DNA of 33,924 bases from Bacteroidia bacterium (lineage in GTDB: Bacteria; Bacteroidota; Bacteroidia; J057), in assembly GCA_019695295.1 (NCBI GenBank), contig JAIBAH010000041.1, forward strand, positions 1 through 33,924, written 5' to 3'. This document shows, piece by piece, positions 23-24,119 of the stretch. Both the position numbers and the translations under genes were made by a program. A model generated the notes under the pieces. That model saw nothing but the letters and a program-made list of their open reading frames with translations. It was not told the DNA's origin and did no database searches. Every line of letters starts with the position of its first letter. The stretch's first letter is position 1.

Positions 23-742
23 ATGAACTTAAGTACTCGATTAAAAGATTTATTATTTGACTTTGTACCTAGCAATCCAGTTCCTAATAAGAAATATTAT
101 AAAGAATTGACGCAGGATATACATGACGCTTTACTTGATATAGGTTCTCATACCCCTGATAATATTAATTGTATAAATCATGTTGTATTTGGTTCTATTA
201 ATGAACGAAGTGAAAAAGCCCAGCTCAAAATTGCACAAAAAAATTTTTTCCTTACAGATGTTTTAAAGTATGTTAAAAGTAAATTGGAGTTTGTAAATTC
301 TGCCAAAGAATATTTACCTGAATTAGAAAATACAGACTTGGTTACTTTTTTTGATGCCACTATCACTTTTTCTCACTATCTAAAAAGAGACCAAACCCTA
401 TATATATTAAATGAAGAATTGAAAAAGGAAACTTACAATATTGAACAAATAAATAGATTTCTTAAAGTTTTTTTTATATCAAAAGGCTTGGCTGATTTGT
501 CCGAAAGTGTTTGTTTTGAAAGAATTAGAGATGAAAATGAAAATAGGGTAAGAGCTGGTATTACAATTAATCATGGCTACTTTGCGTTAGATATAATTCA
601 AGAAATTGAAAATATAGAATGGAAAGATGTTGATTTACTTAGTATTGGTTTAGTTGCCAATGAGATTGATGCAGTAATGAGATTTTTTTCATTGTTCTAT
701 TTAATTTTAGAAGAAGGCATTAATGAATGCTCTCAACCTTAA
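23..742 (+). CDS. Hypothetical protein, A+T-rich accessory gene
   Basis: This 239-residue protein has no signal peptide or membrane segment, so it is probably cytoplasmic. I do not recognise the family and see no catalytic motif. It is mostly helical in character, with charged segments (for example KSKLEFVNSAKEYLPELE around residue 90) and a C-terminal hydrophobic helix rich in Phe and Leu (residues about 208-232). Codon use is strongly A+T-rich, unlike the genes from 4.6 kb onward, which suggests recent acquisition. The first in-frame ATG has an A-rich leader typical of Bacteroidota. The last codons overlap the start of a repeat found again after the next two genes, so the C-terminus may have been altered by whatever placed that repeat. 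The left window edge is only 22 bases away, so an upstream partner gene cannot be seen. Confidence 0.7.
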   Translation: MNLSTRLKDLLFDFVPSNPVPNKKYYKELTQDIHDALLDIGSHTPDNINCINHVVFGSINERSEKAQLKIAQKNFFLTDVLKYVKSKLEFVNSAKEYLPELENTDLVTFFDATITFSHYLKRDQTLYILNEELKKETYNIEQINRFLKVFFISKGLADLSESVCFERIRDENENRVRAGITINHGYFALDIIQEIENIEWKDVDLLSIGLVANEIDAVMRFFSLFYLILEEGINECSQP

Positions 743-834
743 AGATTCTGAAAGGCGAAGTAAAGACTTTAAGGAACGAAGCATTGGCCGACCTAAGCGT
801 TATGGGGGTTGATACGGTTTTGGGGGCAGTTTGA
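731..834 (+). repeat. Dispersed repeat, copy 1 (decayed coding fragment)
   Basis: First of three related + strand copies (others at 1814-1938 and 2941-3065), each beginning at or just after a stop codon. This copy is the only one still open. From the ATG at 727 it reads 35 codons to TGA at 832-834, and the core reads GEVKTLRNEALADLSVMG, then VDTVLGAV. The other copies keep the same words but carry stops and frameshifts. It lacks the 12-base insert that forms the hairpin in copies 2 and 3. Its origin is unknown. I infer the tail of a decayed gene or a mobile-element remnant. Confidence 0.7.
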
Positions 835-1056
835 GTGCTGGGCTTTGAATAGTTTGCGGGGATGAATCTATATTAAAAAAAAATATTTTTGGGGAAAAAT
901 TTGGAGATTTTAGGATGAAGTGTTAAATTTGGGCTTGGGTTGCGGAGTCCTATCTGGGTATTGTCGCAATTGTGCGGAGGAGTAGGGGGTAGGCAGTCTT
1001 CGTTCAACAATAGTTAGAATTATTATTTAATTATTTGATATTTTAAATTAATTATT
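743..1056. other. Gene-free spacer with repeat copy 1
   Basis: No gene of credible length lies here. The left third is repeat copy 1. The rest is G-rich on the + strand (several runs of four or five G) and then becomes extremely A+T-rich over the last 50 bases before the lipoprotein start. I see no clear -7/-33 promoter pair or terminator. Confidence 0.5.
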
Positions 1057-1809
1057 ATGCAAACAACAATTTTAAAAATCGTATTTTGTTTTTTATTATT
1101 TTGGGTGTATAGTTGTGGGAATAATACGACTCCCCCAACTCCCCCAACTTCCAACATTTCTTGTCGTTTACTAAAATTGAATGGAAACGATTTTTACTAT
1201 GATTCTAATCATCAATTAGTAAAAGTAGAACAGCCTAATTATACGGTTTCTTATGTCTATCTTAATAATACAATAAAAGAGAAATATAAAGACAAATTTG
1301 ATCCTGATTCGCTTGAACTTATTCATACTATTAATTCTAACGGAGTTATAACTAATTCCACAGTTTCATATTCAACTTTTAATTTATTTTCTAATGCAAC
1401 ATACTCTTACAATAGTAATGGTTACCTAATAAATGTAGCACAGTCTAGTACTTCCCAAAATTCAATAATAGAATTTACATACAATAATGATAATATAACA
1501 TTCGTTAAAGTAACAAGAACGCCGACTTCTGGAAATGTAGAAATATATGATTTTCAGGTAGAGAATTATAATAATTTTTATAATAGAGCTAACTTTTCGG
1601 ACTTAATCGTTAAGGGACAATACGTAAGTTCTTTATTCCTTATTACTACTAATCTATTTGGGAAGTCTGTTAAAAAAGCAGTAAAAACAACTGAATGTTG
1701 CGGACAAAATTTTGTGTATACCGTGGATAGCGATAGCTCAATTTTAAATGGAACTAGTAGTAGTAATGGATGGGGAGATATAGACGAATTTTCACGAGTA
1801 TGTGACTAA
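1057..1809 (+). CDS. Putative surface lipoprotein
   Basis: A 250-residue lipoprotein precursor. The N-terminus has a Lys, a hydrophobic stretch and a lipobox ending WVYSC, with Cys20 as the lipidation site. A Pro/Thr linker (TPPTPPT) follows. The remainder is rich in Tyr, Asn, Ser and Thr with alternating strands such as DFYYDSNHQLVKVEQ and YSYNSNGYLINV. This resembles the YD-type/DUF4595-like beta-repeat lipoproteins of Bacteroidota. That assignment is by pattern only. Four late cysteines (including ECCGQ) may form disulfides. Codon use is very A+T-rich, like its neighbour upstream. The gene sits between two copies of the dispersed repeat, so the gene plus repeat looks like one unit of a series. 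Confidence 0.75.
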   Translation: MQTTILKIVFCFLLFWVYSCGNNTTPPTPPTSNISCRLLKLNGNDFYYDSNHQLVKVEQPNYTVSYVYLNNTIKEKYKDKFDPDSLELIHTINSNGVITNSTVSYSTFNLFSNATYSYNSNGYLINVAQSSTSQNSIIEFTYNNDNITFVKVTRTPTSGNVEIYDFQVENYNNFYNRANFSDLIVKGQYVSSLFLITTNLFGKSVKKAVKTTECCGQNFVYTVDSDSSILNGTSSSNGWGDIDEFSRVCD

Positions 1810-1813
1810 TTAA

Positions 1814-1938
1814 TCTCCAAACATCAAAGCCTTGACTTCATCCTCCAAAGGTGAAGTCAAGACTTAAAAAAACGAAGCATTGCTGACCTAAACATTATGG
1901 GGATTGAATACAGCTTTGGGAGCTTTTGGGGATTAGCC
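1814..1938 (+). repeat. Dispersed repeat, copy 2, with hairpin
   Basis: Begins 5 bases after the lipoprotein stop. It contains a perfect 10-bp inverted repeat (1831-1840 with 1852-1861, arms CTTGACTTCA/TGAAGTCAAG, 11-base loop). Coding traces match copy 1 (SSKGEVKT, then a stop, then NEAL), with a one-base deletion shared with copy 3. The match to copy 3 runs on to GGGGATTAGCC at 1928-1938. The hairpin could also act as a transcription terminator, although no long T run follows. Confidence 0.75.
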
Positions 1939-2009
1939 TGGGTCAGACAAGCGAGATTTAGCGGCGCAGGTACTCTAAAAATTGTCAAGTAGTAAAATTT
2001 GTAATTGCG

Positions 2010-2043
2010 TTTGCAAAAAATAAAAGAGAAACCCGTATCTTTG
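2010..2043 (+). promoter_or_regulatory. Promoter abutting the Rpn start (leaderless?)
   Basis: TATCTTTG at 2036-2043 is an exact TAnnTTTG -7 element, with TTTG at 2010-2013 (22-base spacing, slightly long). The start codon is at 2048, so transcription would begin at or within a few bases of the ATG, giving a leaderless mRNA. Confidence 0.5.
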
Positions 2044-2047
2044 TACT

Positions 2048-2938
2048 ATGAAAAAGACGAAAAAACTCATACGATTTGACTGGGCGATGAAGAAACTACT
2101 TCGTCATAAGGCAAATTTTGATATTTTGGAAGGCTTTTTGACTGAACTTTTGAACGAAAATATTAAAATTAAGCAGATTTTAGAGAGTGAAGGAAACAAG
2201 GAAACCCAAGATGATAAACACAATCGGGTGGATATGTTGGTTGAGAATGGGAAAGGAGAGTTGGTAATCATTGAAGTACAAAATAGCCAGGAATATGACT
2301 ATTTTCATCGCATTTTGTTTGGGTCATCCAAAGCTGTTACTGAATATATCAAGGAAGGGGAGCCGTATGCTTCTGTAAAAAAAGTGGTTTCAATTACGAT
2401 AGCCTACTTTGATTTGGGGCAAGGCAAGGATTATGTATATCATGGAACAACTTCATTTAAGGGGATTCACAAAAATGATGTATTGGATTTGTCCGACAAG
2501 CAAAGGGAGTTGTATAAAAAAAGAAATGTACATGAAATTTTCCCTGAATACTGGCTGATAAAGGTAAGTAAATTCAGAAATCGAGTGACGGATAAATTAG
2601 ACGAGTGGATTTATTTTTTGAAAAATGGAGAAGTTCAGGAAGGTTTTTCGGCCAAAGGTTTACCCGAAGCAAAGGAAAAGCTAGATGAGATGAAAATGTC
2701 GGAAACAGACCGGAAGGCATACCAAAATTACTTGAAAAGGTTGAGAGATATTGCGAGTGAGCAACATACTAAAATGGCGGATGCGGAGGAGTTGATTAAA
2801 AAAGGTAGAGAGGAGAAAGAATTAGAGGCTGTTATTGGGTTTTATGAAATTGGGGTTGAGCCAACTAAAATAGCGGCAGCTTTAAAAATATCAGTTGAGA
2901 GAACTCTGCAAATAATCGAAAACTACAAAAATAAATAA
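2048..2938 (+). CDS. Rpn family PD-(D/E)XK nuclease / putative transposase
   Basis: A 296-residue protein of the Rpn (recombination-promoting nuclease) / PDDEXK_2 group, known for RecA-independent DNA cleavage and recombination when family members are overproduced. Residues 7-35 (IRFDWAMKKLLRHKANFDILE) are the typical opening of the family in Bacteroidota. The catalytic core is visible as D62 in NRVDMLVENG and E76-x-Q78 in IIEVQNS, the usual ExQ variant of the ExK motif. A helical C-terminal part ends in an HTH-like segment (EPTKIAAALKISVERTL). The family opening supports the start at 2048 over the next Met at codon 14. An exact -7 element lies 4 bases upstream. Repeat copies flank the gene on both sides. 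No terminal inverted repeats or second transposase gene are visible, so it does not look like an intact insertion sequence. Confidence 0.88.
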   Translation: MKKTKKLIRFDWAMKKLLRHKANFDILEGFLTELLNENIKIKQILESEGNKETQDDKHNRVDMLVENGKGELVIIEVQNSQEYDYFHRILFGSSKAVTEYIKEGEPYASVKKVVSITIAYFDLGQGKDYVYHGTTSFKGIHKNDVLDLSDKQRELYKKRNVHEIFPEYWLIKVSKFRNRVTDKLDEWIYFLKNGEVQEGFSAKGLPEAKEKLDEMKMSETDRKAYQNYLKRLRDIASEQHTKMADAEELIKKGREEKELEAVIGFYEIGVEPTKIAAALKISVERTLQIIENYKNK

Positions 2939-2940
2939 AA

Positions 2941-3065
2941 GTCAACCAAAACTAAAGTCTTGACCTCATCCTCCAAAGGTGAAGTCAAGACTTTAAAAAA
3001 CGAAGAATTGCCGACCTAAACATTATGGGAAATGAATACAGTTTTGGAACCTTTGGGGATTAGCC
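2941..3065 (+). repeat. Dispersed repeat, copy 3, with long hairpin
   Basis: Begins 2 bases after the Rpn stop codon. Arms of 15 bases (2954-2968 and 2980-2994) pair at 14 positions around an 11-base loop nearly identical to copy 2. The coding trace reads SSSKGEVKTLKNEELPT and then a stop. Two compensating indels relative to copy 1 restore the frame near the TVLE words. Ends in GGGGATTAGCC as copy 2 does. The stem followed by TTTAAAAAA could serve as a weak terminator for the Rpn gene. Confidence 0.75.
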
Positions 3066-3229
3066 ACGGGCGGATTGTTCTACAATGGGTTGTAGTAGTG
3101 GCTTATTGGGCTTACGAAAAAAATGTAGTAATAAAGGAGTACCCTGAGAAAACAGATTTTTAGTACGGGATAAAAAAGGAACTAAAGTCCGTGTAATTCC
3201 AATTATACGCTAGTTCAAATGCTTGAGAA

Positions 3230-23766: not shown

Positions 23767-23784
23767 TCTTAAAATTTTTGATTG

Positions 23785-23988
23785 TGTACAAAAGTGTAGA
23801 CATAGTCCTATTTTGCTATCACGTAGGGATAAAATGTCGGTAGAAAAGCGAAAAACCCCACACCAAAAGGCCATTTTTTCGTGCTTTGCACGAAAAAATG
23901 GATAAAATGTGGGGGTATTCTCTCTGTTGTCTACCAACATTAAGTGCCTATGGCACAAGCAAAAATAAAACGTCTCCACTTTAGAACG
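23785..23988. repeat. Long imperfect inverted repeat, MITE-like element
   Basis: About 204 bases that fold back on themselves almost end to end. The centre is a perfect 14-bp stem with a TTT loop (23871-23884 with 23888-23901, CCATTTTTTCGTGC). Moving outward: CCCCACA/TGTGGGG (23856-23862, 23908-23914), ATGTCGGTAGA/TCTACCAACAT (23834-23844, 23930-23940, 10 of 11), AAAGTGTAGAC/GTCTCCACTTT (23791-23801, 23972-23982, 10 of 11), with weaker pairing to the tips. The right arm also has its own hairpin GTGCCTATGGCAC. No transposase is encoded. This is the shape of a miniature inverted-repeat element or a large structured RNA. Confidence 0.75.
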
Positions 23989-24119
23989 TAACCAAATTTT
24001 TTATAGTACACGAATATTTTATGTTTTTGCACGAAAAAATATTTTTTTATACTTTTTTTAAGAAAAATTCTATTTGTGTCGTATATAGTTTTAATAAAAC
24101 CAAATAATTAAAAAAAATT

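Follow-up and report, generated by a model that had tools for sequence, protein, structure and literature searches.

The repeat that follows three unrelated genes in the window (the whole 33,924-nt stretch of a Bacteroidia draft genome that was analysed) forms one terminus of a mobile element scattered through the genome, and it is this element that moves, not the genes adjoining it. We infer, with a probability of roughly one half, that the element is an ORF-less mini-cassette of integron type that lies inverted relative to the genes it follows. The evidence comes from the copies of the repeat in this genome, from a carotenoid-oxygenase gene that one copy interrupts, from the pairing of the two ends of the unit, and from integron-type arrays and recombinases in related genomes.

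Copies of the repeat in the window and across the draft genome

A sequence-only reading of the window had reported the same repeat, in a single orientation, 3' of all three genes, and our analysis bore this out with the sites lying where they had been placed (Table 1). Measured from stop codon to AAC, the gaps are -8, 10 and 11 nt. Each copy is built from an AAC, then a 48-nt hairpin, then a conserved tail; copies w2 and w3 align over 113 nt with 90% identity, and w1, in which the hairpin is shortened, reaches 82% identity across 78 nt. The AAC, which reads GTT on the opposite strand, is the terminus of all 10 copies known from this genome, and in four of them GTTGAAC follows the hairpin, such that GTT cores are present at a locus where the earlier reading had seen no integron core sites.

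Table 1. Positions of the genes and repeat copies discussed, in window coordinates unless a locus is named; for repeats, strand is the proposed direction of the site (tail to hairpin to GTT).
Feature	Position	Strand	Remarks
Gene 1, 239 aa, unknown protein	23..742	+	neighbour of w1, judged to lie outside the mobile unit
Repeat unit w1, both ends visible	735..1008	-	AAC 735-737, shortened hairpin, tail, putative far end CTTCGTTCAAC 998-1008
Gene 2, 250 aa, lipoprotein-like	1057..1809	+	DUF4595 match below threshold; neighbour only
Repeat copy w2	1820..1938	-	AAC 1820-1822, complete hairpin, tail
Gene 3, 296 aa, Rpn / PD-(D/E)XK family	2048..2938	+	neighbour only
Repeat copy w3	2950..3065	-	AAC 2950-2952, complete hairpin, tail
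AACTAAAGTCC, 11-nt string repeating the hairpin-side terminus of the element	3181..3191	+	behind w3, read by eye
1,623-bp cassette in genome G007, first copy	L076 13716-15338
1,623-bp cassette in genome G007, second copy	L106 5948-7570

Among the neighbouring genes, gene 1 encodes a protein with no Pfam match, and the product of gene 3 matched PF12784 (E=1.5e-27) and scored above the cut-off of TIGR01784. The last codon and stop of gene 1 (CCT TAA) lie inside w1, and when w1 is removed between its two AACs the gene stops at the same place (CAA CAA TAG), with gene 2 then beginning ~50 nt further on in the window sequence. The short AACTAAAGTCC string behind w3 is possibly a fourth, truncated copy; the covariance model did not return it as one. 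Rfam matched no RNA family at the repeat. Elsewhere in the window, positions 23770-24003 hold a long imperfect palindrome, 234 nt that are 67% identical to their own reverse complement.

Searching the draft genome by BLAST and covariance model revealed 10 copies, three in the window and seven elsewhere (C51, C163, two on C17, C185, C219 and C138, the last a hairpin only), and the repeat is thus dispersed, as the earlier reading had expected of a mobile unit, and not confined to the window locus. Most copies lie near contig ends. Contig C17 forms a second tandem locus, in which a 178-aa gene, a repeat, a VapBC-like pair (DUF2281 and PIN) and another repeat follow one another. Seven of the 10 copies start between -8 and +32 nt from a same-strand stop codon, and because this adjacency has P ~8e-6 when every intergenic AAC on the own contigs examined serves as background, placement behind genes is not random.

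Outside this genome, the covariance model returned no copy from 394 other genomes of the class, and BLAST none from 59 further genomes of relatives; two matches of 21-23 nt within the taxonomic family were not judged to be copies. Pattern scans gave five matches in genome contigs and one in viral contigs, none extending beyond the motif, and a single weak 36-nt match was seen in plasmids and no match in phages. Two contigs with copies have further features: in one C17 copy (L010 660-702) the hairpin fits the family better when inverted (88% vs 76%) with the direction of the tail unchanged, as if the hairpin had flipped, and C219 carries a HindIII-type restriction enzyme gene (L011 5897-6889) with no neighbouring methyltransferase seen, along with duplicated zinc-peptidase-like and lipoprotein genes.

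A carotenoid-oxygenase gene split by the element

The limits of the mobile unit can be read from an RPE65-family carotenoid-oxygenase gene that is divided over two contig ends, with PF03055 positions 1-59 on C161 and 60-469 on C51. Rejoining the flanks at G^TT restores a single 509-aa frame whose only stop is terminal and which gives one gapless PF03055 match (1-469, 354 bits). At the right junction, GACTTTAATG/TTGTGTGAAGG, the boundary coincides exactly with the hairpin end (GTT) of the repeat, and at the left junction, CACAAATTTGTG/TTAAATTTGTGTTGAACAAAGCC, the far end of the insertion bears the box GTTGAACAAAGCC of the repeat family; in a scan of 205,746 sequence windows from loci of this genome, the complement of this 13-nt box, with at most one mismatch allowed, was confined to copies of the family. 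Because the hairpin-side GTT ends the insertion exactly and the far end carries a family box, the repeat represents one terminus of a short mobile unit.

Both contigs terminate within the insertion, leaving only its two ends visible. At the left junction, AAATTTGTGTT additionally occurs twice in tandem (11 nt), a duplication that we attribute to slippage, and the target site folds into a stem-loop. An empty-site comparison at the PorP flank found no orthologue above threshold within the taxonomic family. We also considered whether the insertion was a transposon whose gene began with MRN[YH]SKK and rejected this, since such starts belong to a second dispersed repeat that is also present on C75. 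This second repeat lies at C75 339-427 and 5031-5111, C185 2489-2546 and 2852-2945, and C161 3624-3717, and consists of a promoter-like TATCTTTG, a leader, the short MRN[YH]SKK start and a variable A-run, with no gene behind.

The split gene weighs against a reading of the repeat as a palindrome of REP or terminator type that has not moved recently and persists 3' of genes through a role in transcript ends. The strong hairpin and the location behind stop codons speak for such a palindrome, and REP sequences and REPINs are likewise palindromic and mostly found behind genes (PMC3733652, PMC2817692, PMC3116915). However, our repeat is longer, neither GTAG nor CGTC was seen as a tag at the base of its hairpin, and ten copies would be a small number for REPs; in addition, the hairpin lacks a T-run downstream on the gene strand, and a long tail is conserved among the copies. 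Together with the copy that interrupts the RPE65 gene, these points make a static palindrome very improbable.

Pairing of the two ends of the unit

Read against the window genes, the copies with both ends visible run from GTTGAAC through a body to an R'' box, the hairpin and a GTT, with unit lengths of ~271 bp (w1), 241 bp (C185) and 209 bp (C219). These copies contain no conserved reading frame across their 209-271 bp, and the element as coding sequence was rejected: frames are open in C51 and C185, but frame-shifting indels separate the copies. Far ends were also sought in w2, w3, C17 and C163 and not found there.

In integrons, the R'' box of a cassette is complementary to the cassette's own start. 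Three of four copies show the same complementarity between the two ends of the repeat itself: for RPE65, GGCTTCGTTCAAC serves as R'' box and pairs with the start at 12 of 13 nt, and when the ends of a unit are brought together across a circle junction they form one long hairpin with a 3-nt bulge. Random GTT starts paired equally well in 0/400 trials for RPE65, 1/400 for C219, 9/400 for w1 (whose far end at CTTCGTTCAAC is itself a putative assignment) and 57/400 for C185, such that the end pairing beats nearly all random starts in the first three and is weak in C185. Start boxes swapped between copies performed alike and are thus interchangeable, so the pairing shows no copy-specific covariation; within the hairpin, covariation was not above that of column shuffles.

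The copies w1, C185, C219 and RPE65 have an AAC at each end, either because GTT is the crossover core or because a 3-bp target was duplicated, two explanations that predict the same pattern. The second, or alternatively a target plus an end motif, belongs to a transposon view, in which the unit would be a MITE or an IS200/IS605-type palindrome-associated element whose hairpins near both ends are recognised by a transposase acting in trans. Like those elements, the unit is short, non-coding and dispersed, it entered the RPE65 gene cleanly, and it has a hairpin near one end and, in C161 and C219, a small GC-rich hairpin near the other. Unlike them, it showed no terminal inverted repeats, and no transposase or autonomous partner turned up in searches aimed at other features; a box is terminal on one side and its inverted partner lies inside the 45-nt hairpin on the other, so that the asymmetric ends pair only via a circle junction, and this is the layout of a cassette with its attC. 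We regard a non-autonomous transposon as a real but unlikely alternative.

Integron-type arrays, candidate recombinase and proposed mode of spread

Cassette arrays of integron type are present in relatives. In G007, a complete genome of the same family, a three-gene cassette of 1,623 bp is 100% identical in two arrays ~2 Mb apart (Table 1), with the identity starting at GTTGTGCTCC and ending at CAGACCGTT, exactly at GTT, and with differing neighbours on either copy, which is a direct sign of recent integron-type movement in the family. A search for start/R'' chains in locus L106 of this genome revealed seven consecutive cassettes vs at most three in shuffled sequence, and chains of longer sites were found in G030 and G040, where sites of ~118 nt recur. 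Integron-type arrays with sites of ~110-210 nt lie at L087 1301-10500 (G055), L095 4823-10150 (G030) and L121 (G040), near recombinases of the same family as one encoded in the draft genome (see below). Given these arrays in relatives, cassette arrays of this type are native to the lineage. A match of 15 of 16 nt between the tail of w1 and an attC half of G055 was set aside and not counted as proof. The same attI-like leader heads three of the G007 arrays (L076 16768-16984, L106 3361-3580 and L107 3216-3359), only one of which adjoins the recombinase, and two of the three leaders contain ATAACTTCGTATA, identical to a loxP arm, probably by chance. Published surveys report few integrons in Bacteroidetes, with a complete one in Salinibacter ruber (PMC9024848), and Bacteroidota are listed among integron-bearing phyla (PMC8618304).

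The draft genome itself encodes a 359-aa tyrosine recombinase (PF13495 and PF00589) on contig C140. It passes NF040815 and scores 221 bits against the integron-integrase model TIGR02249, below the cut-off of 265; the match to the latter falls into two parts, with profile positions ~183-239 not covered. At E 1e-40, homologues are encoded in 32 of 60 genomes, this one included, and the protein is homologous to the recombinase beside a G007 array; no array of the present repeat sites was seen beside the C140 gene. The sequence-only reading had suggested that the Rpn-type nuclease encoded by gene 3 could act on the repeat sites; nothing links the two, and the C140 recombinase is the better candidate.

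That reading had also taken each gene with its repeat as a possible cassette, which would make the window and C17 cassette arrays. The cassette-like interpretation has gained from the dispersal and mobility of the repeat, its integron-like features and the real arrays in the same family, whereas gene plus repeat as the moving unit is not supported and now seems improbable. In its favour, a repeat lies 0-30 nt behind the stop codons of accessory genes as unrelated as those for an Rpn-type nuclease, a VapBC-like pair and a lipoprotein; further points are the contig-end location of most copies, as is often seen for arrays, the compact stop-to-AAC spacing, like that of G007 cassettes, and the string AAATGCTGAGAAC before a C17 repeat, which is a true R'' of G007. 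Against it, the insertion in RPE65 has its boundary at the hairpin and not behind a gene, the conserved tail is present 3' of every copy, even where ordinary chromosome begins (C163, C17, w3), and of the gene-plus-repeat units, 3 and C17-2 break the start/R'' rule and unit 2 conforms only marginally (p 0.06), unlike the cassettes of G007, which follow it. With the crossover at the hairpin end, the window genes therefore run against the site. Hairpin plus tail as an attC in the direction of the earlier reading, with R' at the tail end, was rejected for a weak far arm (Fisher P 0.02) and failure of the start/R'' rule.

For the gene-free mini-cassette that we prefer, the order on the strand opposite the window genes would be a GTTGAACAAAGCC start, a non-coding body (the tail), the GGCTTCGTTCAAC R'' box, a 15-bp hairpin, AAT and GTT. 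The unit would be excised as a circle, in which pairing of start and R'' would lengthen the hairpin and give an attC-like stem, bulged by 3 nt at the crossover; one strand could then fold into an attC-like site, and an integron-type tyrosine recombinase, with that of C140 or a relative as candidate, would carry the circle into GTT sites. The three copies in the window would then be three such insertions, lying behind three unrelated genes. The bias to gene 3' ends and the single orientation are not accounted for by this mini-cassette.

Integron cassettes are usually regarded as gene carriers held in arrays. The present unit shares with them an R'' in its hairpin site that is complementary to its own start, a GTT crossover (RPE65 rejoins in frame at G^TT, although a 3-bp target duplication would look alike) and, as in chromosomal attG insertion, precise entry at a GTT site outside an array. 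It differs in having no gene, in copies that are scattered and not arrayed beside attI and intI, in the short spacers of its hairpin, and in a candidate recombinase below the integron-integrase cut-off. Insertion of ordinary cassettes outside arrays, at attG sites, is described by Loot et al. 2024 as cited in PMC12901181 and PMC11023631, and off-target insertion is known at GTT or GNT sites (PMC10127599). Compared with known attG insertion, it would be unusual for a gene-free unit to have multiplied at ~ten sites. More tentatively, an ORF-less cassette may have turned into a self-spreading miniature element that an integron-type recombinase outside the standard IntI profile moves to chromosomal GTT sites, with gene 3' ends preferred, a possible scenario to which we give clearly less weight than to the mini-cassette as such; the preference could perhaps, as a guess, reflect hairpins at gene ends that resemble folded attC sites.

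As the recombinase beside the relatives' arrays falls below the standard integron-integrase cut-off, routine annotation may miss such arrays. If the mini-cassette reading is true, a folded site is able on its own to spread, to disrupt genes (here the one for a carotenoid oxygenase) and to become scattered over a genome like a MITE.
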